Assembly (NCBI RefSeq): GCF_003122325.1
Contig: NZ_QFBC01000016.1
Location: forward strand, 1-64,000
DNA from: Rhizobium album
GTDB taxonomy: Bacteria; Pseudomonadota; Alphaproteobacteria; Rhizobiales; Rhizobiaceae
Direction: 5' to 3'
DNA: 64,000 nucleotides
The notes beneath the pieces are model-generated. The model ran no database searches and was not told the origin of the DNA. It saw only the letters and a program-made list of their open reading frames with translations. Shown piece after piece: positions 9,564 through 33,106 of this stretch; the stretch's first letter is position 1, and each line of letters starts with the position of its first letter. Position numbers and translations under genes: made by a program.

Positions 9564-9586
9564 TGTGTTGATCCTCCGGCCGGGTT

Positions 9587-10742: not shown

Positions 10743-10759
10743 GTTGCTCGAATTAGAAC
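10743..10759. promoter_or_regulatory. Weak copy of the LysR-box motif
   Basis: GTTGCTCGAATTAGAAC has a perfect left half of the GTTGC-N7-GCAAC motif and a poor right half, but keeps the T-N11-A geometry. It lies just after the LysR stop codon and about 100 bases before the dipeptidase start. Confidence 0.3.
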
Positions 10760-10762
10760 GGG

Positions 10763-11677
10763 TTAGCGTTGAGCGAAAACTCGAGATCTGCCCAGGATCC
10801 AGTCGATCACCTCCTTTGCCGGTCTCGGAAGAACCTGGCCGGAGCGTACTAGCATTGAGGCTTTGCCGGATTCCAGCAACGGATGGTCGACCTTGAGCGC
10901 GACCAGTCGGCCGTCGTCCAGATACTCCGCGACATGAAAGGGGTCCAGAAACGTTCCGACGTTCGTTTGCAAGGCATGGTCAATCAGCATTCGCAGATTA
11001 TTGGTGGTCATAGAAGCGATCATTTGCTCTTCTTCTGAATAAGCGATGTGATCGAGGATCTTTCGGATACCGTAGGATGTCGTGAGAAGCGCGAGAGGAT
11101 AGGAAAATGCTTTGCGAACTGTCAGCGGTCCTCGTGCTGCCGCAAGCGGATGCTGAGGCCTTACCAGCAGCCGTAGCGGCACGTCTACCTCTGCAAGTGA
11201 GGTCACCCGATGAGATGCGGGAGCATTGAATGCTATCCCTAGATGACAGATGCCGTCCGCGACCGCCTCTAGAATGTCTGCGACCCCAAGAGCCTCGACT
11301 GTGAAATGTATATTGGGGTGCAATGCCGTAAACGGAAGGATGACCTCCTGCTGCAAGCCGGGCGCAAACCCTTCGCCGACGGCAATTCGGACGTGACCGC
11401 GACTAAGATTACCAATTTCGCTGATTTTCTGCTCGAGGTCCTCGAGTTGCAGCCGTGACGCCTTCCAATATCTGAGCACTTCGAGCGCGGCTTCCGTCGG
11501 AACACTGCCCGCAATGCTACGCTCAAAGAGCTTGGCTCCGAGCTCGTCTTCCAGAAGCCGGATTTGGCGTGTGATCACTGAGGGCGCCGTATTCAAGCGT
11601 TCAGCCGCGCCCCTGATCGAGCCACTGACGGTCACCTCGTAAAAATATCGAAGACGCTGCGGATGAATATCTCTCAT
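10763..11677 (-). CDS. LysR-family regulator, paralogue 1
   Basis: 304 residues. The start MRDIHPQRLRYFYEV is followed by the helix-turn-helix SIRGAAERLNTAPSVITRQIRLLEDELG. It is clearly paralogous to the regulator at 15860-16774, with the same length and the shared RLRYFY and LNTAPSV-TRQ segments. ATG at 11677 has GGGGAG upstream; a longer in-frame start has none. It is divergent from a peptide-binding protein gene, and the shared upstream region carries two inverted repeats. It likely controls peptide or amino-acid uptake genes nearby; the effector is unknown. Confidence 0.88.
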   Translation of the reverse strand: MRDIHPQRLRYFYEVTVSGSIRGAAERLNTAPSVITRQIRLLEDELGAKLFERSIAGSVPTEAALEVLRYWKASRLQLEDLEQKISEIGNLSRGHVRIAVGEGFAPGLQQEVILPFTALHPNIHFTVEALGVADILEAVADGICHLGIAFNAPASHRVTSLAEVDVPLRLLVRPQHPLAAARGPLTVRKAFSYPLALLTTSYGIRKILDHIAYSEEEQMIASMTTNNLRMLIDHALQTNVGTFLDPFHVAEYLDDGRLVALKVDHPLLESGKASMLVRSGQVLPRPAKEVIDWILGRSRVFAQR

Positions 11678-11690
11678 TGTCGCTCCCCTT

Positions 11691-11707
11691 GTTGCTCTGA
11701 AAGCAAC
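11691..11707. promoter_or_regulatory. LysR-box motif GTTGC-N7-GCAAC, site 1
   Basis: GTTGCTCTGAAAGCAAC is a perfect 5+7+5 inverted repeat with T-N11-A geometry, in the divergent region between the LysR gene and the peptide-binding-protein gene. The same motif recurs upstream of other operons in the island. Confidence 0.6.
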
Positions 11708-11713
11708 GATGCG

Positions 11714-11732
11714 AAAGATGCATTGCATCTTT
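11714..11732. promoter_or_regulatory. 19-bp perfect palindrome in the divergent promoter region
   Basis: AAAGATGCATTGCATCTTT (8+3+8) lies seven bases from the GTTGC-N7-GCAAC site. It may be a second regulator site or an autoregulatory site; no other copy was noticed. Confidence 0.45.
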
Positions 11733-11854
11733 TTCGTACGCTAAAGAAGATGCAGTCTGCCACCCGTGTCAATTGTCGTTCCCGCAGAGACGGGATCGGA
11801 CACGCAAGAGCAGCGGTTCGCTGCAAGAGGCGAGGATGCAATGGGGAGGACGAC

Positions 11855-13435
11855 ATGAAGAGAAGAACGTTTCTGAAAGCCGCCGCCGGCACAGCAAGTG
11901 CCGCAGTGCTGGGCGCGCCATCGATTTCCCGCGCGGAAGGACGGGTTATCAAGGTTATCCCAATTTCCAATCTGTCGGGTATCGACCCAATCGTGACTTC
12001 GGGACAACCAATCCGCAATCACGGTTATCAGATCTACGATACCCTATTCGGCCTAGATGCCAATCTTAAAGCTAAGCCACAAATGGCGGACGGCTTTGAA
12101 GCTTCGGCGGACAAGAAAGACTGGACGATCAAGCTAAGGGACGGCCTAAAGTTTCACGATGGCGAGCCCGTTCGTGCGACGGATTGCGTTGCAAGCCTGC
12201 GCCGCTGGGGCCAGAAAGACCCTTTGGGCCAGCGGATGTTCACGCTCGCCGACGAGGTATCGGCGGTGGACGACAAGACGATGCGGTTTCGCTTCAAGTC
12301 ATCCTTCGGTCTCGTGCCGGAAGCACTCGGCAAGGTTGGAGGGCCTGCGCCTTTCATTATGCCCGAGCGGATTGCCAACACGGATGCGAACACGTCGATC
12401 ACCGAAGCAATCGGGTCCGGTCCCTTCCGGTTCGTGGCAGATGAGTGGGTGCCTGGCAACCGCGCCGTCTATGCGAAATTCGACGGCTACGTCCCGCGCA
12501 ACGAGGAACCAAGCGGCACGACCGGCGGCAAGAAAGTCTATATCGACCGATATGAGTGGCACATCATTCCAGATGCCGCGACCGCCACGGCCGCGGCCGT
12601 TCGCGGCGAGATAGACTGGTATCACAACCCGGACACCAATCTCCTTCCACTGCTTCAGAATGAATCGCAGATCGACCTGACGCCCTTCGATGACTTCGGC
12701 TACGTAACCTGCATCCGCTTCAACCATCTTCATCCCCCCTTCGACAACGTGAAGATACGCCAGGCGATCATGATGGCGGTCAGTCAACTGGATTATCTTG
12801 CGGCGGAAGCAGGTGATCCGGCTCTCTACAACGAATGCAAGTCGATGTTCTTCTGCGGCACGCCGTCATCCACCGGCGTCGGTGGTGAGGTAATGACCGG
12901 CAATGTCGAGAAAGCGGCTCAGTTGATAAAGGAGGCCGGTTATAACGGCGAGAAGATCGTGTTGCTCGCACCCACCGACCTTGTGTGGCTGTACAACGCT
13001 AATCTGGTCACCGAAGCTCTTCTCAAGAGCCTCGGTATGAATGTCGAGCTCCAGACGATGGATCTGGGCACGTTTTATACTCGGCGAACCAATATGGATA
13101 CGGTCGACAAGGGCGGCTGGTCGATCTTCCACGCCGGCTGGAATGTCACGGATATTCTCGATCCGTCTACCCATCTCGGACTTCAGGCTACCGGCAAGAC
13201 GACTTGGCCGGGCTGGCCGACCGATCCGGATCTTGAAGCATTGCGCTTCGACTGGATTCAGGCAGGAACTGACGATATGAGGGCTTCCATCGCTCGAAAG
13301 ATCGAGATGCGGACCTTCACGACCGTGCCATTCGTGCCGCTCGGCCAGTTCAAAACGCCTTCAGCCAGACGCAAAACGATTACGGGCATGTTAAAAGCGC
13401 CGATCCCGATCGCGTGGAACTTGCAGAAAGCTTGA
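11855..13435 (+). CDS. Peptide ABC transporter substrate-binding protein (family 5), orphan
   Basis: 526-residue periplasmic binding protein of the DppA/OppA class. The N-terminus MKRRTFLKAAAGTASAA has a Tat-type twin-arginine motif, with cleavage near SRA-EG. It shares long blocks with the protein at 22157-23743 (DPIVTSG-PIRNHGY, ATGSGPYRF-type and CKS-FFCGTP segments), so the two are paralogues. It has no permease genes of its own and could feed the single peptide permease at 16836-22073. The ATG at 11855 follows GGGGAGGA. ridA lies 108 bases downstream, separated by a hairpin. Confidence 0.88.
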   Translation: MKRRTFLKAAAGTASAAVLGAPSISRAEGRVIKVIPISNLSGIDPIVTSGQPIRNHGYQIYDTLFGLDANLKAKPQMADGFEASADKKDWTIKLRDGLKFHDGEPVRATDCVASLRRWGQKDPLGQRMFTLADEVSAVDDKTMRFRFKSSFGLVPEALGKVGGPAPFIMPERIANTDANTSITEAIGSGPFRFVADEWVPGNRAVYAKFDGYVPRNEEPSGTTGGKKVYIDRYEWHIIPDAATATAAAVRGEIDWYHNPDTNLLPLLQNESQIDLTPFDDFGYVTCIRFNHLHPPFDNVKIRQAIMMAVSQLDYLAAEAGDPALYNECKSMFFCGTPSSTGVGGEVMTGNVEKAAQLIKEAGYNGEKIVLLAPTDLVWLYNANLVTEALLKSLGMNVELQTMDLGTFYTRRTNMDTVDKGGWSIFHAGWNVTDILDPSTHLGLQATGKTTWPGWPTDPDLEALRFDWIQAGTDDMRASIARKIEMRTFTTVPFVPLGQFKTPSARRKTITGMLKAPIPIAWNLQKA

Positions 13436-13453
13436 GGCCGATAGCAGTTCTTC

Positions 13454-13490
13454 AGGATGGCCAGGCAGGAAAGCAGAGCCCGGCCATCCT
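13454..13490 (+). terminator. Hairpin between binding-protein gene and ridA
   Basis: AGGATGGCC (13454-13462) pairs with GGCCATCCT (13482-13490) across a 19-base loop, 18 bases after the stop codon and followed by tcattt. It could end or attenuate transcription so that the binding protein is made in excess. Confidence 0.5.
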
Positions 13491-13543
13491 TCATTTCGTT
13501 CGTGTTCCAAGCTGCATACGCATAATTTGCATGGGAGCCATCG

Positions 13544-13930
13544 TTGTCCAATTCAAACGTCATTACAACGGATCGGGCGCCTGCCGCCATTGGTCCCTAT
13601 TCACAAGCGAGAGTTCACGGCGGGCTGCTCTTTGTGTCTGGGCAGTTACCGATCGATCCATTGACCAGCAAGATTTCCTCCGATGATCCTGCCAAACAGA
13701 TCAAGCAATGCCTCACAAACATCCAGGCGATCGCAGAAGTTGCCGGCACATCGATGGCACATTGCCTCAAGACGACGGTGCTCGTGACGGATCTTTCGCG
13801 ATTTCCGGACATAAATGCCGCATATGGCCAGATGTTTACCGCACCTTATCCTGCCCGGGCGACCTATCAGGTGGCCGCCTTGCCATTGAATGCCCAAATC
13901 GAGGTCGAGGCCGTCATCGCAATCATCTGA
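13544..13930 (+). CDS. RidA-family reactive imine/enamine deaminase
   Basis: 128-residue cytoplasmic protein of the YjgF/YER057c/UK114 family. RidA hydrolyses reactive enamine/imine intermediates made by amino-acid-processing enzymes. The conserved segments are present: IGPYSQA near residue 16, the active-site arginine in PYPARATYQVAALP (about 107), and the C-terminal IEVEAVIAI glutamate. The start is TTG at 13544 with GGGAG six bases before it. In this setting it could clear imines produced by the D-amino acid dehydrogenase, which is inference. Confidence 0.88.
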   Translation: MSNSNVITTDRAPAAIGPYSQARVHGGLLFVSGQLPIDPLTSKISSDDPAKQIKQCLTNIQAIAEVAGTSMAHCLKTTVLVTDLSRFPDINAAYGQMFTAPYPARATYQVAALPLNAQIEVEAVIAII

Positions 13931-13940
13931 ACGATGCAAA

Positions 13941-13975
13941 TGAGGGCGCCGGAATCTCCAATCCCGGCGCCCTCA
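13941..13975. terminator. Strong hairpin between convergent genes
   Basis: TGAGGGCGCCGG pairs perfectly with CCGGCGCCCTCA (12 bp, 11-base loop), just after the ridA stop and 32 bases from the stop of the convergent aminotransferase gene. There is no long T tail; it is probably a two-way terminator. Confidence 0.6.
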
Positions 13976-14006
13976 GATCGGACCACCATCACCGCAAGGC
14001 ACCTTA

Positions 14007-15203
14007 TTAAGCGGGCGTAAGCCTTCCGCACGCCTCGGCAATCCGCCGGCAGGCATCCGCCAATTCATCCTGTTTTAACGCGTAGGACATCCTCAAATGT
14101 CCGGGACTGCCGAACAACCCACCCGGCACGACGGCGACGTGCGCCTCCTGCATCAGGTAGTGGCTGACATCGTCGTCGGTTCCGATGACCTTGCCATCAG
14201 GCTGCTTCATACCCAAAGCACGTGTGCAGCGCGGGAAAAGATAAAAGGCGCCGTCCGGCGTAGCGCAGTCAAATAGTCGGGTAGCCCGCAGCTTCTCGAT
14301 GAGAAACAGCGAGCGATCCCGAAACGAACGACACCGCTCGGCAAGGTAATCGTCCGGGCCTATCAGAGCCGCGAGCACGGCCGCCTGCGAGATCGACGAT
14401 GCACATGATGTCGATTGGCCCTGAACGATCGCCATGTTTCCGATCAGGGACTGCGGACCGACGCCCCAACCGATACGCCAGCCGGTCATGGCATAGGCTT
14501 TTGATGCTCCATCAACGACGAGCATCCTTCCCCTGAGGTCGGGAGCTGCGTCGCGCAAGCTGACAAAAGGAGCGTAGCTGATTTCGCGATAGATTTCGTC
14601 ACTCATAACGGCGATCTGCGGATGGCGTCTCAAGACATCCGCCAGCCCAACCAGTTCCTCCCGCCGATAAACGGCTCCTGAGGGATTGCCGGGATTGTTG
14701 AGCAGCAACCAACGAGTTCGTTTCGTAATCGCGTTCTCGAGCTGTTCCGGGGTGATCTTCAATCCCGTGTCTGCTGTCTGCACCACAACCGCGCGGCCCC
14801 CGACGATCTGTACCATATCCATGTACGTGGTCCAAAAAGGCGCAGCGAAAATAACCTCGTCACCAACATTCAACGTTGCCATTAAGGCATTGAAAATGAC
14901 CTGCTTCGCTCCCGTGCTGACGAGCACTTCCTTTTCGGTTGCGTCGTGGCGCTTTCCGATAGCGGCGCGCAATTCTGGGGTGCCCGAATTGGCGGTGTAA
15001 CGCGTCTTGCCGTTTCGTGCCGCTTGAAAGGCTGCATCTACGACATGTTCAGGAGTGGGGAAGTCAGGCTCGCCGACCCCAAGATCAATGACGTATTTTC
15101 CTTCTGCTCTCAACAGCGCGGCGGCTTCCGAAATCCGCACGATGCCCGACACCTCGATCCCTTGGAGCCGGTCTGCACGGGAAAATGGATAGCGGTCGTT
15201 CAT
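14007..15203 (-). CDS. Class I/II PLP-dependent aminotransferase
   Basis: 398 residues of the aspartate aminotransferase fold I. VIDLGVGEPDFPTPEHV near the N-terminus, NNPGNPSG in the middle and the PLP lysine in DGASKAYAMTGWRIGW identify the family; specificity could be aspartate, aromatic or prephenate and cannot be decided. The ATG at 15203 is separated by one base from the stop of the preceding ureidoglycolate-lyase-type gene, implying translational coupling; longer in-frame starts would overlap that gene. It would move amino groups in the same amino-acid-processing island. Confidence 0.87.
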   Translation of the reverse strand: MNDRYPFSRADRLQGIEVSGIVRISEAAALLRAEGKYVIDLGVGEPDFPTPEHVVDAAFQAARNGKTRYTANSGTPELRAAIGKRHDATEKEVLVSTGAKQVIFNALMATLNVGDEVIFAAPFWTTYMDMVQIVGGRAVVVQTADTGLKITPEQLENAITKRTRWLLLNNPGNPSGAVYRREELVGLADVLRRHPQIAVMSDEIYREISYAPFVSLRDAAPDLRGRMLVVDGASKAYAMTGWRIGWGVGPQSLIGNMAIVQGQSTSCASSISQAAVLAALIGPDDYLAERCRSFRDRSLFLIEKLRATRLFDCATPDGAFYLFPRCTRALGMKQPDGKVIGTDDDVSHYLMQEAHVAVVPGGLFGSPGHLRMSYALKQDELADACRRIAEACGRLTPA

Positions 15204-15204
15204 A

Positions 15205-15723
15205 TCAGTCCACCAAAATTTCCGGCGGATTTTCGTCATATGTTCGGATGATGCTTCGCTTCGGTTCGGCAACTGGTTTGTCGAAGAGCTCGCTCTGCGT
15301 CTCCTTATCCGAAAGGAAGAGGAATAGTCCCGGTTCGTTTCCGAGGGGGTAGGCATCGACCGCATGCCAGGTGCCCAGCTTGAACATTACGCCTTGGCGA
15401 TCAAGACGAAATGCCCGCAACTTCGCCGGCGTAGGCACCTCTTCCGCCGGCTCGCTTACAACGATCACCGTGGGAGATCCACCGATATGCATGCGGGATT
15501 CTGTTACATGGAAGTGTCTCTCGATCTTATGGACCTTGAAGGGCTGCGGCTTGAAGCTGATGAGTTGCAGGATGAGCGGCGCGTCGCACTGCCAAGGGAA
15601 TCTGTGAACACTTTTCGTCGGCAAGTCGAAGTCCGGGATCTCGTGCGGCTGAAAGACACGCCCGTAAGGCGCGAATGCCTCTGGTGTCAACGTTTCGATT
15701 TCAATGCCATGCCCTGACGTCAC
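15205..15723 (-). CDS. Ureidoglycolate lyase (AllA) family protein
   Basis: 172 residues, the usual length for AllA, which splits ureidoglycolate into glyoxylate and urea late in purine degradation. Matching segments are IEIETLTPEAFAPYGRVF at the start, VHKIERHFHVTESRMHIGG, the cupin-like FKLGTWHAVDAYPLG, and EPGLFLFL. No other allantoin-pathway gene is visible, so the true substrate may be a related ureido or carbamoyl compound. It is the first gene of a two-gene unit with the aminotransferase, and a variant LysR-box lies about 110 bases upstream. Confidence 0.8.
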   Translation of the reverse strand: MTSGHGIEIETLTPEAFAPYGRVFQPHEIPDFDLPTKSVHRFPWQCDAPLILQLISFKPQPFKVHKIERHFHVTESRMHIGGSPTVIVVSEPAEEVPTPAKLRAFRLDRQGVMFKLGTWHAVDAYPLGNEPGLFLFLSDKETQSELFDKPVAEPKRSIIRTYDENPPEILVD

Positions 15724-15829
15724 GTGTTTGCCTCCTCGAATTGTATCGGGTTCCCGGATGGGGCCGGTCCCATCAGGGAAGGTAGCAAGCGGCAGGTGGC
15801 GACGATATGCGCAAACGTTACGCCAGCAT

Positions 15830-15846
15830 GTTGCCCTATGGGCACT
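15830..15846. promoter_or_regulatory. Variant LysR-box motif upstream of the allA-type gene
   Basis: GTTGCCCTATGGGCACT matches GTTGC-N7-GCAAC except for the last two bases and keeps T-N11-A. It lies about 107 bases before the start of the ureidoglycolate-lyase-type gene. Confidence 0.4.
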
Positions 15847-15859
15847 GCCTCCGGCGGGT

Positions 15860-16774
15860 TCAACATTGACCGAAGATTTTGGAATGTCGTCGAATATAGT
15901 CGATCATCGTGGTCATCGCCTTTGTCGGCGTCCGGCCGGATCGCGCAATGACATTCGCCTGGTTTTCGGTCAGCAGCGGATGGTCAATCTCGAGCGCTTT
16001 CAATTCACCACTACCGAACTCGGCCGCGACATAGCGCGGGCCGAGAAACGCCACGGCCGTGCCGTTGCAGATGAAGTGGGCGATGGCTCGGGAGGAATTC
16101 GAGGAGAACACGACGTTCAGAGGAATGCGCTTGGAATCGGCCAGAAGTTCGGTGGTGCGACCGAGCCCGAAATTGTTCGGCATCTTAGCGATTGGGTACG
16201 ACAGTGCGCGGGCCAGCGTCATTGGCTCGGTTGTTTTGGCGAGTTCATGATCCTTGCTGACAAAAAGCTTGATCGGCACATCGACATGCAGGAACGAGCG
16301 GATATAGCTGACCTTCGGAGGGTTATAGACAATGCCGAGATGCGCGATATCAGACGCGACCTGATCTACGATGTCACCGACCGATAGCACGTTCACTGAA
16401 AGCTCTATTTTGGGAAAGTCCCTGTTGAATGGCTTGACGACATTGTCGACGAAATCGACCAAGAACCCCTCAGAAACCGAGATATAAACCTTTCCGCGCT
16501 TAAGCGCCCGGGTCTCAGCGATACGCTCTTCAAGGATCTCCATAAGCGAGCGGGAAGAATGCCAGTAGTCGAGCAGGAACTGTGCGGCATCAGTCGGCTT
16601 ACTGCCAGAGACGTCGCGCTCAAACAGTTTAACGCCCATCTCCTCCTCAAGCAGTTTTAACTGCCGCGTCACGACCGAAGGGGCGGTGTTCAACTCGTCG
16701 GCTGCTCGGCGGATGGAGCCATGCAGAGCAACATTGTAGAAATAGCGTAGTCGGCGCTCATTGAGTTCCCGCAT
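15860..16774 (-). CDS. LysR-family regulator, paralogue 2
   Basis: 304 residues beginning MRELNERRLRYFYNV, which aligns without gaps with the start of the LysR protein at 10763-11677. The helix-turn-helix is SIRRAADELNTAPSVVTRQLKLLEEEMG. I chose the ATG at 16774 by that alignment; an in-frame TTG lies 27 bases upstream. It sits after the permease genes of the peptide transporter and in the same direction, with a gap of about 60 bases, so it may be the last gene of that operon. It probably regulates the peptide-uptake regulon with paralogue 1. Confidence 0.87.
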   Translation of the reverse strand: MRELNERRLRYFYNVALHGSIRRAADELNTAPSVVTRQLKLLEEEMGVKLFERDVSGSKPTDAAQFLLDYWHSSRSLMEILEERIAETRALKRGKVYISVSEGFLVDFVDNVVKPFNRDFPKIELSVNVLSVGDIVDQVASDIAHLGIVYNPPKVSYIRSFLHVDVPIKLFVSKDHELAKTTEPMTLARALSYPIAKMPNNFGLGRTTELLADSKRIPLNVVFSSNSSRAIAHFICNGTAVAFLGPRYVAAEFGSGELKALEIDHPLLTENQANVIARSGRTPTKAMTTMIDYIRRHSKIFGQC

Positions 16775-16835
16775 TCTCTCGCCAACATCCTTTCGAGACA
16801 AAGCACCGACTCTTCTCCGGGGCCGTCCAGTCCGT

Positions 16836-17702
16836 TTACATATTCCGCGACATGCGCGGATCCAAATAATCCCGCAATCCGTCGCCGATGAGATTGATGC
16901 TAAGCACGGTGATCGAAAGGAACACGGCGGGGAAGAAGATCATATGGGGATAGATCTGGAAGAAGGTTCGTCCGTCGGCGATGATATTGCCCCAGGTCGG
17001 AATGGACGACGGCGTGCCTGCACCGATGAAGCTCAGGATGGACTCCACAATGATGGCGGAACCGCATATGAATGTTCCTTGCACGATGAGCGGTGCCAGC
17101 GTGTTGGGCAGGATATGCCTGAAAAGGACGTGGTGGATCGGAGCACCGGATGCTATTGCCGCCTCGACGAAAGGCTGGCCGCGCAAAGTGAAGACGACGG
17201 AGCGCATCAGACGAGTAACCCGCGGTATCTCCGAAATCGTCAATGCGATGATGACGTTGCCGACGCTGGCTGTGGTCAGCGCCATCAGGGCGATGGCCAA
17301 GAGAACGGCCGGTATTGCCATGAAGGCTTCGAGGACACGACTCATAATGGCATCCACCGACCTGAAGAAACCCGATACGAGGCCGAGAAGGATTCCGCAT
17401 GCGAGCGACAACACGGATACGGACACCCCGACCAGCAGGGAAATACGACCGCCTGCAATCACGCGGGCGAAAAGATCGCGACCAAGCGCATCGGTGCCGA
17501 ACCAATAAAGTGTGGACGGGGGCTTCAATCTCCTCAGCGGAGAAATAGCATTTGGGTCAACCGAGTAAATAATCGGTCCGACAAGAGCGATCAGGATTAC
17601 GCTCAAAAGCAAGACGCCGCCGACGACCACGGACAGATTCTGGTGCACAAAACGATGCCAGAGCGCATAGCGTGAGGGTGTGGTTTCTAGGATTACAGTC
17701 AT
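16836..17702 (-). CDS. Peptide ABC transporter permease (DppC type)
   Basis: 288-residue inner membrane permease with about six hydrophobic segments. The N-terminal domain before the first segment, the DALGRDLFARVIAGGRISLLVG block and the EAA loop (EAAIASGAPIHHVLFRHILPNTLAPLIV) are typical of DppC/OppC. The ATG at 17702 lies four bases after the stop of the partner permease. It would form a heterodimer with that protein and use the fused ATPase encoded upstream. Confidence 0.9.
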   Translation of the reverse strand: MTVILETTPSRYALWHRFVHQNLSVVVGGVLLLSVILIALVGPIIYSVDPNAISPLRRLKPPSTLYWFGTDALGRDLFARVIAGGRISLLVGVSVSVLSLACGILLGLVSGFFRSVDAIMSRVLEAFMAIPAVLLAIALMALTTASVGNVIIALTISEIPRVTRLMRSVVFTLRGQPFVEAAIASGAPIHHVLFRHILPNTLAPLIVQGTFICGSAIIVESILSFIGAGTPSSIPTWGNIIADGRTFFQIYPHMIFFPAVFLSITVLSINLIGDGLRDYLDPRMSRNM

Positions 17703-17706
17703 GGGA

Positions 17707-18648: not shown

Positions 18649-18687
18649 CGGCCCGCTCCTGAGTTCGGCTCGCTTACATCAACCATT

Positions 18688-20178: not shown

Positions 20179-20231
20179 ACGGATCTCTCCCAAAACCTGA
20201 AATTTAAACGATTTGCCTCAGGAGGCATCAA

Positions 20232-23743: not shown

Positions 23744-23850
23744 CGTCGCTCCACCCGTTGTTGGCTTATCGCTCTCGATAGGGGCGACGCCTATTCTTGG
23801 GAGCTAACGTAAGCACAAAGGCCTGCGACGTAAAACCGTAAACGGAACAC

Positions 23851-23879
23851 ATTGGTGTTGCCTGCTGGGCAACACCAAT
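23851..23879. promoter_or_regulatory. 12-bp inverted repeat containing LysR-box site 2
   Basis: ATTGGTGTTGCC and GGCAACACCAAT flank a five-base loop. The core at 23857-23873, GTTGCCTGCTGGGCAAC, fits GTTGC-N7-GCAAC. It is 20 bases after the M20 gene stop and about 110 bases before the binding-protein start on the same strand. It could also terminate the upstream transcript, but no T run follows in either direction. Confidence 0.6.
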
Positions 23880-23898
23880 CCTATCGTAAAAACTGCTA

Positions 23899-25281: not shown

Positions 25282-25335
25282 TGCCATGTCTCCTTCTCAA
25301 GGCGAATTAAATGGCGCGACCGCAATCGCCCGGCG

Positions 25336-25352
25336 TTTGCCAATCGGGCAAG
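25336..25352. promoter_or_regulatory. LysR-box motif, site 3
   Basis: TTTGCCAATCGGGCAAG contains TTGCC-N5-GGCAA with T-N11-A geometry. It lies in the gap between the MalY-type and M20 genes, about 55 bases before the M20 start codon. Confidence 0.5.
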
Positions 25353-25385
25353 GGGCGCCCAGCCATGCGGCCTTGGCACACGGAC

Positions 25386-26600
25386 TTAGGCGCGAGTGCG
25401 CACTGCATGCGTCATGCGCTCCAGAATCTCGCTGAGTATCGTTTCCGATGTCGCAAAATTCAGCCTTGCAAAGGCCTCACCGCCTGTCACAAACGTCTGC
25501 CCGGCGCTTAGGACTACATGCGCTTCGCCCAGAAAGAAATCGTAAGCCGGCAAGGGTAATCCAAGTGCGCTGCAGTCGAGCCATGCCATGTAGGTGCCTT
25601 CGGGGGCATAGACCCGGATTTCCGGCAGTTCCTTTTTCAACCTTTGCATAAGCAGGCCGCGCATGTCGGCCAGATATGACAGTACGTCATGCTGCCATTG
25701 ATGGCTGCTCTCCCATGCAGCGATCGTCGCATCGATACCCATGGCATGTCCCGGGACAATCACCCTGCGCGGGAAGGCCTTGAGATAGCGATCGCGTAAC
25801 TCCGCAGTGCCAAAGTGAACAAACGCGCATTTCAGGCCCGCCGTATTGAACGATTTCGCCGCCGAACCCAGAGTGATCGTTCGCCTTGCTATTTCCTCGC
25901 CAAGGGAGGCGATGGGAATATGCCGGAACTGATCGAAAGTAATCTCGCAGTGCACCTCGTCCGAAATGATGAGCAGATCGCGAGCCAGAGCGAGCTCCGC
26001 CAGTTTTTCCAGGTCCTGGCGATCGAGCACGCCTCCTGTCGGATTGTGGGGATTGCACAGCATAAGCAGGCGTGTCTGGGGTCCGATGGTATTGGCGAGG
26101 TTGTCGAAATCGATGGACAAACGATTGCCGTCGTCCACGGTTTCGACCGGGGTAAAAACGCGCCCGGTCGAGACTATCGCCTCTCGAAATGGCGGATAGC
26201 AAGGCTCCTGGATGGCAGCGCCATCGCCTTCTTGCGAAAACGCCAGCACGGTTGTGAAAATTGCTTGCACGAGATCGGAAACGACGACAACGTTTTCCGG
26301 GTCCGGACGCCAATCGAAAATCCTGCTCATGCGTTCTGCATAGAGCTTTGCCACGGAGGCTGGCGTGCGAGATCCGTTTCTTGTGGGGTAGCCGTATTGT
26401 TGATCGGTCGCTATTCGTGACAGAGCATCGGCGATGGCCGGCGCCACCGCATAGTCCATCTCGGCGACAAATGCCGGAAGGACATCTTCCCCATAGCTGG
26501 ACCACTTGAGATTGCCGCGACGCCGCAGCGCCGCTTCGTCCATCAGAAAATAGGTACTGTCCGGATTGCGTTTCCGCGGAGCAGCTTCGACATTCCGCAT
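25386..26600 (-). CDS. MalY/PatB-type PLP-dependent enzyme (C-S lyase or aminotransferase)
   Basis: 404-residue fold type I PLP enzyme. LPAFVAEMDYAVAPAIADAL near residue 42, YGYPTRNG, LCNPHNPTGGV, ISDEVHCEITF and the PLP lysine in LGSAAKSFNTAGLK are the MalY/PatB pattern. Family members act as cystathionine beta-lyases or as aminotransferases, and specificity is not readable here. The ATG lies four bases after the stop of the M81 copy 2 gene, so the two are translationally coupled. It may process sulfur-containing or unusual amino acids freed from imported peptides. Confidence 0.86.
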   Translation of the reverse strand: MRNVEAAPRKRNPDSTYFLMDEAALRRRGNLKWSSYGEDVLPAFVAEMDYAVAPAIADALSRIATDQQYGYPTRNGSRTPASVAKLYAERMSRIFDWRPDPENVVVVSDLVQAIFTTVLAFSQEGDGAAIQEPCYPPFREAIVSTGRVFTPVETVDDGNRLSIDFDNLANTIGPQTRLLMLCNPHNPTGGVLDRQDLEKLAELALARDLLIISDEVHCEITFDQFRHIPIASLGEEIARRTITLGSAAKSFNTAGLKCAFVHFGTAELRDRYLKAFPRRVIVPGHAMGIDATIAAWESSHQWQHDVLSYLADMRGLLMQRLKKELPEIRVYAPEGTYMAWLDCSALGLPLPAYDFFLGEAHVVLSAGQTFVTGGEAFARLNFATSETILSEILERMTHAVRTRA

Positions 26601-26604
26601 CCGA

Positions 26605-28110
26605 TCAATCCTCTGAAATCAAACTGGAAAACGCCGGTCCCATGGGCGAAGTGCGCATCCCTTCTGCCAGCCGCGTCCAGGGCAGATCATCGGGATCGGC
26701 CTTCATCGGCCCTGGCGCCTTGGCTACGATAATGGCTGCCGCTACTTCTGTGAAATCAGCCCGAAAATGAACGGAGCTCTTGTTGACGAGTATGGATTTC
26801 GTTTCGGGTTCGATGCCGGCGATGCGATAAAGCACCCTATCGAACATCTGCGCCTTGGTCGGACTGACGACGATGCTGACACCTGCCATGCGAAGGCAGG
26901 CGACACCTCCCAGGTCGACTTTGTTGCCGTGGAACATCGGCCCCTCGAACGTGCAGGTCCCATCGCCGATAAAATCGACATGGAACGTGCCACAGAGAGG
27001 CGAATCGCCCTCTACATCCGATGTGCCGCCGAGCGCTATGGTTATGTCAGTGCCGACGCCGGCCGTGCGTGCAGCCTCGAATGCCGCAGGATCGTAAAAC
27101 ACGCCGATTGCAGCATTGGCCGCTCCACAGTCCAACAATGCCTTCAGCATGCCGGTCGTGTTTCCGTCACCACCCGCACCGGGATTGTCTTGCGTATCGG
27201 AGATGACCACCGGCTTTCGAGCGTCCGCAGTAATTCTCATGGCCTGCTCCACGGCGTCGCGTGGGGAGAGAAAATCCACCCGCCAATTCTCCTCTTCGGC
27301 AACGATCAAATCGACAAGCGTTGAAACGGCGTCTTCAACGGCGTGCCGATCGCGCCCGTAGCCCCAGACGGTGGGTCCGCATTCGGGAAAATCGGCGGCG
27401 GGAAAGCCCGGGGCGAAAGACAGGGAAATCACGTCGCCTTTCTGAAGTTCACGCAGCCTTTCGTAAACGCGACGGGCCGGATCGACCAACGTGCACATCC
27501 CGTTGATCGGAATGAGAAAGGGGAGCCTGCTAAATGACTTGAACCAGGGCGTCGGCGATGCTCGGTATTCATGGAGCAGTTCAAGCACCTTGGCTCCGGT
27601 ATCCGCCATGTCGAGATGCGGATAAGTTTGGTAGGCGATCAGGCCGTCCGCAAGATCGATCATTCTTGCAGTCACATTGGCGTGCAGGTCCAACGACGCG
27701 ACTAGAGGAACATCCGAACCTATGATCGAACGCAGCCTTGCCAGTATTTCACCTTCCCCGTCGTCATGTGCCTCTGTGACCATGGCACCATGGAGATTGA
27801 TGAAAACACTGTCATAGGAGTGCTTCCTTGCCGCTTCGGCAATCTCGCCGAGAATCTGCTCGAAAGCAGCAGTCGTCACATGGGCCGAGGCGCTCGCGCC
27901 ACCCCAGACGACGGGGATGAGCTCGTGTCCGGCTGACAACGCTGCTTTGATGAAGCCACCGGCGCCGAGGTTGATCTCTTGCAACTCATAAAGTTCGGCT
28001 CCCCGCCTCAGCGCCGGATACCCTTCTCCGTTGAGGAAGTTCCGGTAGTGGGCCTTTGAAGGCGCGAACGTGTTTGTCTCATGTTCAAACCCCGCTACAA
28101 GTATTCGCAC
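26605..28110 (-). CDS. M81-family metallopeptidase (MlrC type), copy 2
   Basis: 501 residues from a GTG at 28110 preceded by GGGGGTGG; the reading frame extends further upstream but without a ribosome site. Motifs correspond to copy 1: GFEHETNTFAPSK, FINLHGAMVTEAHDDGEGE, SLDLHANVT, YQTYPHLDMADTG and SDTQDNPGAGGDGNTTGM. No signal peptide. It differs substantially from the copy at 18688-20178, so the two probably handle different peptides or steps. It is the first gene of a unit with the MalY-type and M20 enzymes. Confidence 0.86.
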   Translation of the reverse strand: MRILVAGFEHETNTFAPSKAHYRNFLNGEGYPALRRGAELYELQEINLGAGGFIKAALSAGHELIPVVWGGASASAHVTTAAFEQILGEIAEAARKHSYDSVFINLHGAMVTEAHDDGEGEILARLRSIIGSDVPLVASLDLHANVTARMIDLADGLIAYQTYPHLDMADTGAKVLELLHEYRASPTPWFKSFSRLPFLIPINGMCTLVDPARRVYERLRELQKGDVISLSFAPGFPAADFPECGPTVWGYGRDRHAVEDAVSTLVDLIVAEEENWRVDFLSPRDAVEQAMRITADARKPVVISDTQDNPGAGGDGNTTGMLKALLDCGAANAAIGVFYDPAAFEAARTAGVGTDITIALGGTSDVEGDSPLCGTFHVDFIGDGTCTFEGPMFHGNKVDLGGVACLRMAGVSIVVSPTKAQMFDRVLYRIAGIEPETKSILVNKSSVHFRADFTEVAAAIIVAKAPGPMKADPDDLPWTRLAEGMRTSPMGPAFSSLISED

Positions 28111-28195
28111 GATCCACCCCCACTTTGCGCCAAACAAGATATGGCCTGTATCGGGCGATGGGTTTTCGCGGAAGCAGCAGCTTGTGAATGCATGC

Positions 28196-28212
28196 ATTGC
28201 CTTGAAAGCAAC
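28196..28212. promoter_or_regulatory. LysR-box motif, site 4
   Basis: ATTGCCTTGAAAGCAAC fits GTTGC-N7-GCAAC with T-N11-A. It lies about 86 bases before the GTG start of the M81 copy 2 gene and 49 bases after the stop of the Aap ATPase gene. Confidence 0.55.
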
Positions 28213-28260
28213 ACCCCAACACAATAGCACGCATCAGGGGATTATAATTGTGATGGACGG

Positions 28261-29025
28261 TCAGCGAACGAGGTTCGCGAGAAACTGCCGGGTGCGTTCA
28301 TTGGACTGGATTTTGAAAAATACATCCGGCCTGTTAACCTCCACGATCTGCCCTTTGTCCATGAAGATTACTCTATCAGCGACTTGCCGCGCAAAGCCCA
28401 TCTCGTGGGTAACGCAGATCATCGTAATGCCGTCTCTTGCCAAATCTGTCATTGTATCCAGGATTTCTTTCACCATCTCCGGATCGAGCGCGGAGGTCGG
28501 TTCGTCGAAGAGCAGAATTTTTGGCTCCATGCAGAGGGCTCTGGCGATGGCCACACGCTGTTGCTGGCCGCCCGAAAGCTGACCCGGAAATTTAGATGCC
28601 TGTTCGGAAATTCGGACACGCGCGAGATAATGATCGGCAACATCCTCTGCCTGCCGCCGCGACAATCCCCTGACTGTCATCGGTCCCAGAACGCAGTTTT
28701 CCATGACGCTCAGATGAGGAAACAGGTTAAAGTGCTGAAATACCATGCCGATCTGTTGCTTTACCATTTGCACGTCCTTTCGCGCTCCCGACATCTCAAC
28801 GCCATGGACATGAAGCCGACCGCTCTCGAAAGGTTCGAGCTGATTTATGCAACGAATGAGCGTGGACTTGCCTGATCCGGACGGGCCACAAATAACGACC
28901 TTCTCACCAACGGAAATATCGAGGTCGATACGGTTCAGAACCTGAAAGTTTCCAAACCATTTGGAGAGTTCACGAACCTGCACCGCGAAAGAATTGGCTG
29001 GGATAGGCGTTTTGGTCACGGCCAT
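28261..29025 (-). CDS. Amino acid ABC transporter ATP-binding protein (AapP/GlnQ type)
   Basis: 254-residue ATPase of the polar amino acid class. Walker A GPSGSGKS, Q-loop MVFQHFNLFPHLSV, signature LSGGQQQR, Walker B LLFDEPTSALDPEMV and the H-loop CVTHEMGFA are all intact. The ATG at 29025 begins four bases after the stop of the upstream permease, whose last codons contain its ribosome site. Last gene of a J-Q-M-P operon like the rhizobial general L-amino acid permease. Confidence 0.92.
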   Translation of the reverse strand: MAVTKTPIPANSFAVQVRELSKWFGNFQVLNRIDLDISVGEKVVICGPSGSGKSTLIRCINQLEPFESGRLHVHGVEMSGARKDVQMVKQQIGMVFQHFNLFPHLSVMENCVLGPMTVRGLSRRQAEDVADHYLARVRISEQASKFPGQLSGGQQQRVAIARALCMEPKILLFDEPTSALDPEMVKEILDTMTDLARDGITMICVTHEMGFARQVADRVIFMDKGQIVEVNRPDVFFKIQSNERTRQFLANLVR

Positions 29026-29029
29026 TCTC

Positions 29030-30196
29030 TTACCTTCCGTGATCACGAGACAATCGGCGTTCGATCAGAGCGCCATAACGCGACATGCCGAAACAGAAAC
29101 TAAAATATACAACAGCGGCAAATGCATAACCGGTCGTGCTGATCGTGGGCGCGGCCCATCGGGGATCGATGCGCGCCGTTTCAATGGTCGACAGGAAGTC
29201 GAATATCCCGACGATCAAAAGGAGCGACGTGTCCTTGAAGAGGCCAATATTAATGCTGACGATATTCGGAACGGCGACCTTGAGGGCTTGCGGGAGAATG
29301 ATGAGAACCATGGTCTTCCAGTAGCCTAAGCCTAATGCCGATGCCGCTTCATATTGCCCTCGCGGGATGGCTTGCAGTCCACCACGAATGATTTCCGCAA
29401 GATAAGCCGCCGCAAAGAACGTGATACCGACCAGAGCCCGCACCAGCTTGTCAGGGTTGAGGCCGGTCGGGAGGAAAAGCGGAAGCATCGTGTTCGCCAT
29501 GAAAAGCACGGTTACCAAAGGGACGCCGCGTGGCAACTCGATCAATCCGATGCTCAACCACCGCACGATCACCAAATGTGAGCGACGCCCGAGAGCAAGC
29601 AATATCCCGACCGGCAAGGCGGTGGCGATACCGACGGCGGCGACCACGATAGTAACCATCAGTCCGCCCCACAGATTTGTAGGAACATCCGGCAGCCCCA
29701 CCGCGTCCCAGCCGCTTAGAAAGATAAAGCCGGTTAACGGAAGGGCAACAATAACGAGAGTTAGGCCCAATCGCCGGAACGGAGCACGCGGCCACAGCAG
29801 ATAAGCGAGGCCAAGGCCGCCGGCGATAAAGAACGTGTTCACACGCCATCGCTGATCGAGCGGGTAGGACCCGTAGATAAAGTATTTGTAGCGATCAGCA
29901 ATGAACGCCCAGCACGCACCCACAGGGCGCCCATCCGAGGGTCGGCATGCCTCGCCAGTGTCACCCCACCATACCGCGTCCACCAACAGGAACCTGGCCA
30001 GGTGCCAAGCTGTGCCTGCGAGAAGGGAGAAGATCAAAATCGACAGGAGGGACTGCCGCCAGTTGGGAAAGAGATTGCGGCGAAGCCAATTGAAACAGCC
30101 TCGATCAACAAGCGGCGGCGGGGCAGGCGGGTGAGGTTCGCTCTGACAGTAGGTCAAGGGCAGCAAGGGCTCGGGTCGATAGGTACCGGATGACAT
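29030..30196 (-). CDS. Amino acid ABC transporter permease (AapM type)
   Basis: 388-residue inner membrane protein with the long N-terminal region and early membrane segments typical of AapM. The EAA loop region reads LAEIIRGGLQAIPRGQYEAASALGLGYWKTMVLIILPQALKVAVPNIV. The start ATG overlaps the stop of the preceding permease by one base (TGATG). It pairs with the AapQ-type permease. Confidence 0.9.
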   Translation of the reverse strand: MSSGTYRPEPLLPLTYCQSEPHPPAPPPLVDRGCFNWLRRNLFPNWRQSLLSILIFSLLAGTAWHLARFLLVDAVWWGDTGEACRPSDGRPVGACWAFIADRYKYFIYGSYPLDQRWRVNTFFIAGGLGLAYLLWPRAPFRRLGLTLVIVALPLTGFIFLSGWDAVGLPDVPTNLWGGLMVTIVVAAVGIATALPVGILLALGRRSHLVIVRWLSIGLIELPRGVPLVTVLFMANTMLPLFLPTGLNPDKLVRALVGITFFAAAYLAEIIRGGLQAIPRGQYEAASALGLGYWKTMVLIILPQALKVAVPNIVSINIGLFKDTSLLLIVGIFDFLSTIETARIDPRWAAPTISTTGYAFAAVVYFSFCFGMSRYGALIERRLSRDHGR

Positions 30197-31446
30197 CAGT
30201 TTTCCACCGTAGCGATGCGGCGGTTATAGACGTTCATCCCGAGTGCCGTAAGAAGCGAGATGGTGAGATAGACCGCCATGGTCATGAAGACGATCTCAAC
30301 TGCCTGACCAGTTTGGTTCAACACGGTCCCGGCGAAAATCTGCACGAGGTCGGGATAGCCGATTGCCACCGCCAGTGAAGAGTTCTTGAGGAGATTGAGA
30401 TACTGGTTGGTAAGGGGTGGAATGATGACACGTATGGCCTGCGGCAAGATCACTTCACGCATTATCTTTCCCGGTGGAAGATGAAGCGAGCGGGCGGCCT
30501 CATACTGACCCTTGGGTACAGCGGCCAAGCCGGACCGGACCACTTCGGCAATCGATGAAGCCGTATAGAAGATCAGGCCTATGAGAAGCGCCACCAACTC
30601 AGGCAAAAGCTGCCATCCTCCATCCACGCTGAACCGTCCCATCACGGGAATATTGAATAGGATCGGTGAGCGGCCAGTCGTCAGGTAGATAGCAAGGCAG
30701 AAAGCCATAGGTAGGCTGAAGAGGATCAACAGGTTCGCGGAACGATGCGGAAAGAAGTGCCCTGTTCTTGCCCGCCATAATGGAGCAAGACGTGCGGTCA
30801 AAATAAACAACCCCGCGATTGCTGCAGCGACCAAGAGCCAGGCGCCGCCGAAATCCTGAACGACCGGCTGTGGAAGAGCAAGTCCGCGACGGTTCAGATA
30901 GATAATGTTGCCGAGGTGCAGACTTTCCAAGGCTTTCGCCGGGAGAGCCGCCAATACGGCATTGTACCAGAACAGAAGCTGGAGAAGTAATGGCGTGTTT
31001 CTGAAGACTTCCACATAGGCGGCAGCCACACGGTTCAGCAACCAATTGGACGATCGCCGGGAAATGCCGATGATGAAACCCAAAATAGTTGCAAGAGGAA
31101 TGGCAATCACGGTGACTTCGACCGTGTTCAGCAGACCAACTAAAAAGGCGCGTCCATAGGTCGAAACTGCGCTGAAAGGGATCAGGCTCTGACTGACGTC
31201 GAAGCCGGCGGTATGGCCGAGAAACCCGAATCCAGAGGCGACCCCCTGCTCCGCAAGGCTGCCGCTAGCATTCCATAACGCGCCCCCAACCAGCCCGGCA
31301 ATCGCAATAAGCAGAATCGCCTGCCACAATATTTCCTTCGCGGTGGCCGATTGGCCCCGCCGGGACTTCGTGGATGTCCGCGAGAACATGTGATTTCCCA
31401 TCGTCTTACTGTTGCGAGCCCACCGCTTGTGGGCGTCATCGGTCAT
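30196..31446 (-). CDS. Amino acid ABC transporter permease (AapQ type)
   Basis: 416-residue permease. The conserved region EVFRNTPLLLQLLFWYNAVLAALP and the EAA loop SSIAEVVRSGLAAVPKGQYEAARSLHLPPGKIMREVILPQAIRVIIPPL are typical of the HisM/AapQ class. ATG at 31446 is preceded by GAAGGCC; an ATG at 31398 is also possible. It overlaps the next gene by one base and follows the binding-protein gene closely. Confidence 0.88.
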   Translation of the reverse strand: MTDDAHKRWARNSKTMGNHMFSRTSTKSRRGQSATAKEILWQAILLIAIAGLVGGALWNASGSLAEQGVASGFGFLGHTAGFDVSQSLIPFSAVSTYGRAFLVGLLNTVEVTVIAIPLATILGFIIGISRRSSNWLLNRVAAAYVEVFRNTPLLLQLLFWYNAVLAALPAKALESLHLGNIIYLNRRGLALPQPVVQDFGGAWLLVAAAIAGLFILTARLAPLWRARTGHFFPHRSANLLILFSLPMAFCLAIYLTTGRSPILFNIPVMGRFSVDGGWQLLPELVALLIGLIFYTASSIAEVVRSGLAAVPKGQYEAARSLHLPPGKIMREVILPQAIRVIIPPLTNQYLNLLKNSSLAVAIGYPDLVQIFAGTVLNQTGQAVEIVFMTMAVYLTISLLTALGMNVYNRRIATVEN

Positions 31447-31462
31447 TTGCCGGCCTTCGCTG

Positions 31463-32491
31463 TCATCGAAGCGGGGGAGCGTATTGCAGGCCTCCCTTGC
31501 TCCAGAGAGCATTCAGGCCTCGCGGAATTTTCAAGGGCGACCCGGAACCGAGATTTCGGTCGTACATTTCGCCGTAATTGCCCACGGCACGGATAGCGCG
31601 TAGCGCCCAGTCCTTGTTCACGCCCAGAAGTTCGCCAACATTGCCTTCGACGCCAAGAAGGCGCCGGATCTCCGGATTTTCGCTCGTCAGGTAGGTTTCA
31701 ACATTGTCGCGGGTGATGCCGTTGTCCTCTGCGATAAGCAGCGCGAAATGTAGCCAGGCTGTAAGATCTGACCACTGGCTGTCGCCCTGCAGGACGCCGA
31801 TGGCTAAAGGCTCCCGCGAGACGATCTCCGGGAGAACGACATGTTTGTCCGGTTCGGCCATTCTGCGACGTTCACCATAAAGCGCCGAGGAATCGTTCGA
31901 ATAGCTGTCGCAGCGTCCGCTTTCATATGCCTTTACCGTTTCGCTGCTCGTGGCAAAGGTCACCGGCTTGTATTTCATGCCTTTCGCTCGGAAGTAGTCG
32001 GAAGTGTTAAGTTCGGCCGTCGATCCCTGCGTTAGGCATATACTGGCACCGTCAAGTTCAGCTGCAGATGTCAAGCCACTGTCGGCTCTGACAAGAAATC
32101 CCTGTCCGTCGTAAAAATCGACAGCGCGAAAATCGAGACCGTTGGCTGTGTCGCGAGAGAGTGTCCAGGTTGTGGTCCTCGCGAGTACGTCGACCTGCCC
32201 GGCCTGAATTGCTGCGAAGCGGTCCTTAGCCGTCAAGGGCACAAATTTGACCTTCCTGGCGTCGCCGATCGCCGCGGCCGCCAACGCACGACAGTAGTCG
32301 GTGTCCAGGCCCTGCCAGTTGCCGTCCGAATCCGGCAGTGCAAATCCTGCTAGGCCGGTGCCGACACCACAGATAAGTTCGCCCCGCGCTCTCACCTTGG
32401 CGAGCGTGGAACTCTCATGAGCGCTTCCCCAATTTGGGGTGATCGCCATTGTCAGCGCGGCCAATGCCGCGCTATAAATTCGTACTTTCAC
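31463..32491 (-). CDS. Amino acid ABC transporter substrate-binding protein (AapJ type)
   Basis: 342-residue periplasmic binding protein, first gene of the Aap-type operon. A Sec signal peptide (IYSAALAALTMAITPNWGSA) is followed by LAKVRARGELICGVGTGLAGFALPDSDGNWQGLDTDYCRALAAA, the standard AapJ opening. GTG at 32491 follows a GGAGGGGAA site. Rhizobial Aap systems take up a broad range of L-amino acids. A LysR-box variant lies about 140 bases upstream, which would place this transporter in the same regulon as the peptide genes. Confidence 0.9.
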   Translation of the reverse strand: MKVRIYSAALAALTMAITPNWGSAHESSTLAKVRARGELICGVGTGLAGFALPDSDGNWQGLDTDYCRALAAAAIGDARKVKFVPLTAKDRFAAIQAGQVDVLARTTTWTLSRDTANGLDFRAVDFYDGQGFLVRADSGLTSAAELDGASICLTQGSTAELNTSDYFRAKGMKYKPVTFATSSETVKAYESGRCDSYSNDSSALYGERRRMAEPDKHVVLPEIVSREPLAIGVLQGDSQWSDLTAWLHFALLIAEDNGITRDNVETYLTSENPEIRRLLGVEGNVGELLGVNKDWALRAIRAVGNYGEMYDRNLGSGSPLKIPRGLNALWSKGGLQYAPPLR

Positions 32492-32507
32492 AGTATTCCC
32501 CTCCATT

Positions 32508-33106
32508 TGCGCCGGCTCTCCCGGACTGGCGCGCCTGTCGCTTTTTCCAATAATGATGCGCGATTGGCAGACGATGCTTTGAAGGTATTCAAACCTGCCG
32601 CCTAAGGAAGACGCAAAGAGTCGGTACGGGTGTTGCCCTGAAGGTAACGCAAGTGGTAGCCAGCGGAGGATTTCGGTCTGCAGATAAGGCCTTCAGCGCG
32701 CGGAAGGCATTCTCAAGATGCTTGACCAGCGGCAACTACCAATCTTGAACCCAAGTCCGCTGGCCGCGGCGGTGACGGCCATGCTCGTCACCCCGTCAGT
32801 CGCAAGTGTGACTTCAACATTGCGGAGTCGCCTCAGTGATCGTACGCGTGATCGAGGCGGCTTTGGCCAACTGACGCTCCTGCACGAAGAACGGGTCGTG
32901 ATCTATCGGAGGTTTTGGGCAAGGACGGCTTGCCTGACGACCTGAAGAAGGCGTAATCGTAACGAAGGAGCACTTGCTACTACCGATCGATGGCCTACGC
33001 TTTGGATCTCAGCGACAACGAGGTCGTCGAGGACATCCAGGGCAAGCGGGCTGGTTACTGGTTGCCACGGCAGATTGGCGTCGATAGCACCTGCTGTGGC
33101 CGGCCC
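32508..33106. other. Non-coding stretch with possible gene remnants
   Basis: About 600 bases without a convincing gene. It contains the LysR-box variant at 32632-32648. At 32900-32956 the plus strand reads DLSEVLGKDGLPDDLKKA followed by a stop, resembling the conserved N-terminal part of some IS256-family transposases, but the match does not continue. Two open frames of 75 and 83 codons cross the region without ribosome sites or recognisable domains. Confidence 0.45.
32632..32648. promoter_or_regulatory. LysR-box motif, site 5
   Basis: GTTGCCCTGAAGGTAAC matches GTTGC-N7-GCAAC with one change in the right half and keeps T-N11-A. It is about 140 bases before the aapJ-type start codon. Confidence 0.5.

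Follow-up and report, generated by a model that had tools for sequence, protein, structure and literature searches.

A 24.4-kb island of genes for peptide use in Rhizobium album very probably forms a local LysR-type regulon, in which one or both of two LysR paralogues, LysR1 and LysR2, would act on a shared two-part operator in response to an inducer, probably a peptide or an amino acid derived from one. The island, of which 1,681 bases are non-coding by our own gene models, lies in the 64,000-nucleotide stretch analysed here (contig NZ_QFBC01000016.1, positions 1 to 64,000; hereafter the window). The operator consists of a palindrome, GTTGCY-N5-RGCAAC (Y, pyrimidine; R, purine; N, any base), and a weaker half-site towards the target gene. 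A preliminary description of this DNA had proposed that such a palindrome ties peptide import, peptidases and amino-acid uptake into one regulon. The proposal is supported by an independent weight matrix, by the sites on plasmid pRL1 of Rhizobium leguminosarum and by the same operator before the genes of most sampled members of the LysR clade; on this evidence, joint regulation of the whole island is very probable.

Palindromes before the units of the island

The seven GTTGC-N7-GCAAC-like palindromes listed in the preliminary description were all recovered at their positions, and T-N11-A is kept in 7/7. That one precedes each unit of the island, as also claimed there, held for four strong and two intermediate sites, but the seventh, 10743, lies at noise level. 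The candidate recognition sites, with matrix scores and ranks in the window, are as follows.

11691 to 11707, plus strand: operator (recognition site) between the divergent LysR1 and SBP1 genes; exact; score 23.4, rank 2
23857 to 23873, minus strand: operator of the peptide ATP-binding cassette (ABC) operon (SBP2, ATPase, M81a, permeases and probably LysR2); exact; score 23.7, rank 1
32632 to 32648, minus strand: operator of the aapJ-type amino-acid ABC operon; score 18.0, rank 3
28196 to 28212, minus strand: operator of the M81b-PatB-like unit; score 17.2, rank 4
15830 to 15846, minus strand: imperfect operator of the ureidoglycolate-lyase-like/aminotransferase unit; score 10.6
25336 to 25352, minus strand: imperfect operator of the M20 amidohydrolase gene; score 7.7, top of its gap
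10743 to 10759, minus strand: perhaps a degenerate operator for the M19 dipeptidase-dadA unit; score 4.8, top of its gap but at noise level

Operator 11691 stands 13 bp from the LysR1 start codon. Operator 23857 sits within a longer perfect inverted repeat of 12 bp (23851-23879).

An independent weight matrix

A first matrix was built from 37 distinct sites before related LysR genes, none of them from the window or pRL1. Its four best matches in the 64 kb are 11691, 23857, 32632 and 28196 (23.4 to 16.6); the fifth score, 10.4, falls inside a gene, and 15830, 25336 and 10743 rank 8, 13 and 22. With a redundancy-filtered training set, the order was 23857, 11691, 32632 and 28196, followed by 15830 (10.6). 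Of the island's 11 gaps of at least 17 bases, seven lead into a unit, and in 7/7 of these the palindrome noted earlier is the top matrix match; no score in the other four gaps, three of which are intra-operon and one flanked by convergent genes, exceeds -1.5. Among 1000 column-permuted matrices, none gave a sum as high as the observed 105.4, the largest being 44.6.

The preliminary description had suggested comparing the density of sites in coding DNA. At matrix scores of at least 12, all four matches in the window lie in non-coding bases of the island; at lower cut-offs the non-coding share is 5/7 (at least 10) and 5/13 (at least 8). First-matrix scores of up to 19.2 occur in 172 kb of other DNA from the same genome, chosen for having such sites, so that a matrix score alone is no proof. 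Two composite matches in the window, at 40721 and 26376, were set aside as chance because their palindromes score just 6.0 and 5.9.

Conservation in related islands

A scan of genome contigs with LysR1, which finds close relatives only, returned two matches, Agrobacterium bohemicum R90 and Rhizobiales AFS040727. Both keep 14 to 17 of the 17 bases at the sites, but their flanks are also kept at 0.85 to 0.97, so these two relatives add little. The block common to both breaks off at 32650, just 2 bp beyond operator 32632, and continues from 61083; the intervening DNA is about 28 kb long in the window but 5.2 and 2.6 kb in the relatives.

A diverged copy of the island lies on plasmid pRL1 of R. 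leguminosarum Ta1k, with LysR proteins 84.5 and 87.8% identical to those of the window (87.8% for LysR2). The 40.9 kb of pRL1 read contain seven core matches, six of them before six units (the aapJ operon, M81b, M20, LysR2, the allA-like gene and LysR1) and the seventh, 31904, inside a gene. Although the aapJ operon has been inverted in pRL1, its site is still upstream (L014:14851, before the open reading frame [ORF] 13646-14689). The allA-like site has one mismatch and stands 106 bp upstream of its gene, as in the window, and the M20 gene has an exact site 79 bp upstream. For the SBP2 operon (about 6.9 kb) there is no alignment in pRL1, which leaves an SBP2-type operator upstream of LysR2.

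Site by site, the window and pRL1 agree in 13/17 bases at 11691 (flank 0.77), with all ten arm bases kept, in 16/17 at 28196 (0.70), in 14/17 at 15830 (0.64) and, in a short alignment, in 14/16 at 23857 (0.75). At 10743 the agreement is 15/17 (0.58), with no M19 gene annotated there; 25336 is out of register in this alignment and 32632 is unaligned because of the inversion. Operator 11691 is kept in A. bohemicum, AFS040727 and R. leguminosarum, and 23857 is kept in relatives as well. Conservation of the sites in genomes with the same gene order, which the preliminary description had proposed as a check, is therefore seen in the diverged pRL1, while in the close relatives the sites hardly stand out from their flanks.

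The operator follows a LysR clade

LysR1 and LysR2 each carry both LysR domains (HTH_1, 1.3e-16 and 3.2e-18; LysR_substrate, 2e-30 and 6.2e-29) and are 41% identical, in keeping with their earlier description as paralogues within the island. Neither reaches the cut-off of the IlvY model NF008722 (44.1 and 53.4 bits; cut-off 246) or of the CynR model NF008416 (120.6 and 112.2 bits; cut-off 277).

When the best handful of candidates per genome was scored, LysR1 relatives were found in 1/297 genomes of a family sample (E 1e-60), 1/297 of an order sample (1e-60) and 1/385 of a class sample (1e-50). Each time the match was the genome itself; within Alphaproteobacteria, the island thus appears to be sporadic. 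A phylum sample gave a relative in 7/398 genomes at E 1e-45, our own included. Within one family, 112/249 genomes hold a LysR relative at the same threshold; we call this family Burkholderiaceae because plasmid records of Caballeronia, Paraburkholderia, Burkholderia and Cupriavidus carry the same proteins. Judging by these samples, the clade occurs chiefly in Burkholderiaceae. Three genomes of 1.9-2.8 Mb (G1299, G1318 and G1331) have 6, 7 and 3 matches to this LysR family, and the exact operator is absent from the one stretch read among them, L106 of G1331.

In a tree, LysR1 and LysR2 are sisters (100/97) within a clade of 47 rows; some branches are long, mostly outside the clade. Promoters were sampled from 28 loci of the Burkholderiaceae set (best matches only), 6 of the phylum set and plasmid loci. 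Before the LysR start codons, exact GTTGC-N7-GCAAC was found in 39/54 placements (44/54 with at most one mismatch), and 36 of the 39 exact sites stand 11 to 49 bp upstream of the start codon. Among clade rows from outside the window, 37/45 have the exact palindrome before their own lysR gene, and 2/8 rows outside the clade do; in these figures L074 and L015 are identical in sequence, and L057, which has an exact site, was left out of the tree. Apparent sites 85 bp upstream in L065 and L038 were rejected, as they resemble the activation element, not the palindrome; L038 agrees with L065 in both letters and distance.

Across the 249 genomes, GTTGCY-N5-RGCAAC-N14-GTTGC occurs at 69 places in 57 genomes, compared with one place in one genome for the reversed pattern. 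Among the matches listed, 57/69 places lie at most 200 bp upstream of a LysR gene of this family, and 56 of the 57 motif-bearing genomes carry such a gene, against 112/249 overall. The other 12 places are listed below; the first eight stand directly before the genes named.

L108, L109, L112, L113, L114, L116, L117, L118: two-part motif before M81b, major facilitator superfamily (MFS)-M81b, MFS or alpha/beta-hydrolase genes
L115: before an amidase gene
L110: before a LysR gene in pieces
L111: inside an ORF
L088: before an unassigned ORF

Homologues of M81b were found in 22 of the 38 LysR loci examined (L099 and L015 being one species). In L109 (5052-5960) and L110 (5158-6068), the family LysR gene is broken into several reading-frame pieces and the two-part operator is intact; the broken gene of L109 lies on the opposite side of the motif from the gene listed above. 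That an unrelated regulator encoded elsewhere binds the sites seems very unlikely to us, since the motif keeps to genomes of the LysR clade in the proportions just given and precedes the clade's own genes.

A second half-site towards the target

The half-site, GTTGC, stands between palindrome and target, separated from the palindrome by 14 nt. With 31 non-redundant promoters aligned on the palindrome, G stands at base 15 in 30, and T, T and G at bases 16-18 in 29 to 30; the full second element is GTTGCTCTTGCTC. Of 40 offsets compared in the 13 rhizobial promoters (7 of the window, 6 of pRL1), offset 14 gives this element its highest score, -6.1; the runner-up has -10.8, and the others average -16.9. 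When the seven promoters of the window are combined, Fisher p at offset 14 is 3.4e-4 towards the target and 0.49 away from it. The half-site is fitting for a LysR activation site: with the palindrome centre near -65, as in described LysR systems, the second element would fall over -35. The putative activation half-sites, each with its p-value taken alone, are:

11722 to 11735, plus strand: after 11691; ATTGCATCTTTTTC; p 0.07
23829 to 23842, minus strand: after 23857; TTTACGGTTTTACG; p 0.013
28168 to 28181, minus strand: after 28196; GCTGCTGCTTCCGC; p 0.021
32604 to 32617, minus strand: after 32632; TTTGCGTCTTCCTT; p 0.06
15802 to 15815, minus strand: after 15830; TTTGCGCATATCGT; p 0.05

Directly after operator 11691 comes a second inverted repeat, GATGCGAAAGATGCATTGCATC (11707-11729), which overlaps with the putative activation site there.

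A half-site on one side only and at a fixed distance is no trait of a terminator, which bears on whether the palindromes might be transcription terminators or other inter-operon RNA hairpins. Five of the seven sites do lie at most 65 bp past the stop codon of the preceding gene, and 23857 extends to a 12-bp stem. However, the R. leguminosarum counterpart of 23857 lacks this stem, and such sites are also found in other bacteria in the gaps between lysR and a divergent gene. Moreover, in none of the 18 terminator-like matches in 9500-29000 (a scan that ends before 32632) is the stem formed by one of the sites, and chance alone would give as many matches (19.5). Taken together, a hairpin origin of the sites is very improbable.

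Proposed mechanism and the two regulators

LysR proteins generally bind a palindrome as a dimer, with a second dimer on a half-site, shift upon binding an inducer and repress their own genes. By analogy, a dimer of LysR1 and/or LysR2 would bind the GTTGCY-N5-RGCAAC recognition site before each unit, and a second dimer would occupy the weaker half-site, in which a GTTGC-like arm starts 15 nt past the palindrome, close to where the -35 is expected. The inducer, which is probably a peptide or a peptide-derived amino acid, would then shift the bound tetramer and thereby switch on peptide import and breakdown together, and the site just before lysR1 would provide negative autoregulation. The sites, their conservation, their tie to the LysR family and the fixed second half-site are observed; we infer the binding, the activation, the inducer and the division of labour between the paralogues.

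As to the last of these, one paralogue alone, most likely LysR1, may control all units, leaving LysR2 with another target or none. The lysR1 gene is directly preceded by 11691, an exact operator of the kind typical for the clade, whereas no site directly precedes lysR2, which is probably expressed from the SBP2 operon. Yet LysR2 shows the same recognition-helix pattern: residues S33, R37 and Q38 of the helix-turn-helix (HTH) part are invariant in 46 rows, LysR1 and LysR2 among them, so both proteins could read the site. The HTH part as a whole is, by mean entropy, more conserved than the rest of the protein (0.69 for residues 1-62 against 1.27 for 63-304), as is usual for LysR proteins. LysR2 is also 88% kept in R. 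leguminosarum, with the SBP2-type operator upstream of it there. Sole control by one paralogue is a serious possibility, though not the arrangement we expect.

Weighing the shared regulon

A number of observations weigh against one regulon with a shared operator. Site 10743, at a score of 4.8, is not separable from noise, and 25336 and 15830 are imperfect both in the window and in the two close relatives; their candidacy as operators rests partly on relatives. Taken singly, the promoters of the window give weak half-site p-values (0.013 to 0.34), and neither M20 promoter, that of the window or that of pRL1, has the second half-site. In pRL1, a distance of about 450 bp and one locus tag separate the SBP2-type operator from LysR2, and 8 of the 45 sampled clade members lack an exact site (L014_20001, L038, L049, L051, L065, L066, L078 and L087). 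Finally, in the whole genome (6.86 Mb), exact GTTGC-N7-GCAAC occurs at 10 places versus 11 for the reversed control, and GTTGCY-N5-RGCAAC with at most one mismatch occurs at 58, fewer than its control (184).

Other counts add detail. The window holds just two of the 10 exact places, two of the three exact GTTGCY-N5-RGCAAC places and four of the 58 one-mismatch places, each of the four being a site noted earlier. TTGCC-N5-GGCAA is found at 25 places in the genome versus 8 for its control, three of them in the window. Exact TTGC-N7-GCAA occurs seven times in the window against 1.65 expected, a number reached by 0/100 shuffles. Four of these cores lie in gaps, as had been described before (11692, 23858, 25337 and 28197); the other three are not in island gaps (23677 and 27828 in genes, 55315 outside the island in an ORF). 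The loose palindrome, with at most two mismatches, is little enriched in the window (56 versus 37). Thirteen of 15 further stretches of the genome with palindromes, looked at for context, gave no clear sign of a wider regulon: of their 16 core or exact sites, 13 lie inside a mechanical ORF of at least 150 amino acids and three outside ORFs (L025:5269, L032:4697 and L034:5332). One of these stretches holds a distant LysR gene (L030 4620-5556; G000:C12:680619-681555), with a match of 33% identity over 178 residues (E 2e-19); its stop codon is followed, 4 bases on, by an exact GTTGC-N7-GCAAC.

Motif counts alone are a weak case for a regulon, and the case therefore rests on the independent matrix and the relatives. 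The poor enrichment of the loose motif, and of the exact motif genome-wide, is what chance palindromes in a selectively read region would give, but the out-of-sample matrix, the permutations, the conservation in the diverged R. leguminosarum island and the two-part motif count (57/249 genomes versus 1 for the reversed control) contradict this, and we regard chance as an extremely improbable source of the sites.

Genes of the island

The predicted units are listed below.

8208 to 10642, minus strand: M19 dipeptidase and DadA-type D-amino-acid dehydrogenase (Pfam)
10763 to 11677, minus strand: LysR1, candidate regulator (HTH_1 and LysR_substrate)
11855 to 13435, plus strand: SBP1, orphan family-5 peptide-binding protein (Pfam; start revised from the translation)
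14007 to 15723, minus strand: ureidoglycolate-lyase-like (allA-like) gene and aminotransferase (Pfam)
15860 to 16774, minus strand: LysR2, candidate regulator (HTH_1 and LysR_substrate)
16836 to 23743, minus strand: peptide ABC transporter operon with M81a (Pfam)
23899 to 25287, minus strand: M20 amidohydrolase (NCBIfam TIGR01891, 235.7 bits; cut-off 153.75)
25386 to 28110, minus strand: M81b metallopeptidase and PatB-like C-S lyase (Pfam)
28261 to 32506, minus strand: aapJ-type amino-acid ABC transporter operon (Pfam)

The DadA model NF001933 gives 672 bits (cut-off 383), and the PatB model TIGR04350 gives the C-S lyase 322.9 bits, slightly below its cut-off of 340. There are two M81 enzymes, M81a and M81b, and two family-5 binding proteins, SBP1 and SBP2, which are 52% identical. 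At 382.6 bits, M81a does not reach the Microcystinase MlrC cut-off of 999 and by this score is a member of the M81 family, not MlrC proper. The range of targets (importers, M19, M20, M81, PatB-like, aminotransferase and DadA) suggests peptide uptake and breakdown, perhaps of peptides with D-residues or S-conjugates, although the substrate is a guess. A transposase gene at 173-1714 (rve, HTH_Tnp_1), which we take to be IS3-like, lies just outside the block shared with the relatives, which starts at 1792.

Comparison with known systems

M81 enzymes are widespread and, to our knowledge, their use outside microcystin breakdown is unclear. A regulator clade with a very specific operator offers a genome-wide way to find genes that work with these enzymes, and the operator could serve as a reporter for finding the inducer. 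The island also presents a compact case of an operator spreading to many promoters while its regulator duplicates. More speculatively, and in our view rather doubtfully, the clade, found mainly in Burkholderiaceae and occasionally in rhizobia, might be a dedicated regulator of M81 (MlrC-like) enzymes acting through GTTGCY-N5-RGCAAC-N14-GTTGC; in the island, six or seven promoters would have come to carry this operator and the regulator would have duplicated, with the two sisters, perhaps as mixed tetramers, reading two signals at a shared operator.

The kind of system is known, whereas the operator, the clade, the link between them, the two-part form and the LysR-M81 pairing were not found in print among the open-licence PubMed Central (PMC) papers listed in our searches. 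An M81 gene appears in a NifA data set, with no link to this LysR clade in the part of the source consulted (PMC8305402). As far as the sections consulted describe them, BhbR1-type LysR promoters combine a recognition site (T-N11-A near -65) with an activation site over -35 (PMC12016517). The island promoters likewise join a T-N11-A palindrome to a weaker second site towards the target, but their sequence differs from that of BhbR1 (ATA-N9-TAT), and they are predicted to serve seven units and two regulators. The IlvY operators, given as TTGCA-n5-TGCAA with ilvC as target in the portion of the source seen (PMC5002191), have a TTGC-N7-GCAA core identical to that of the island; theirs has A/T within the core, whereas the island sites have Y/R. 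The LysR-MFS-M81 sets of Burkholderiaceae have the same LysR clade, the same operator and an M81b homologue 56-62% identical. Except in L106, each locus read there has an MFS transporter and one family LysR, whereas two ABC importers, two LysR genes and several more enzymes make up the island.

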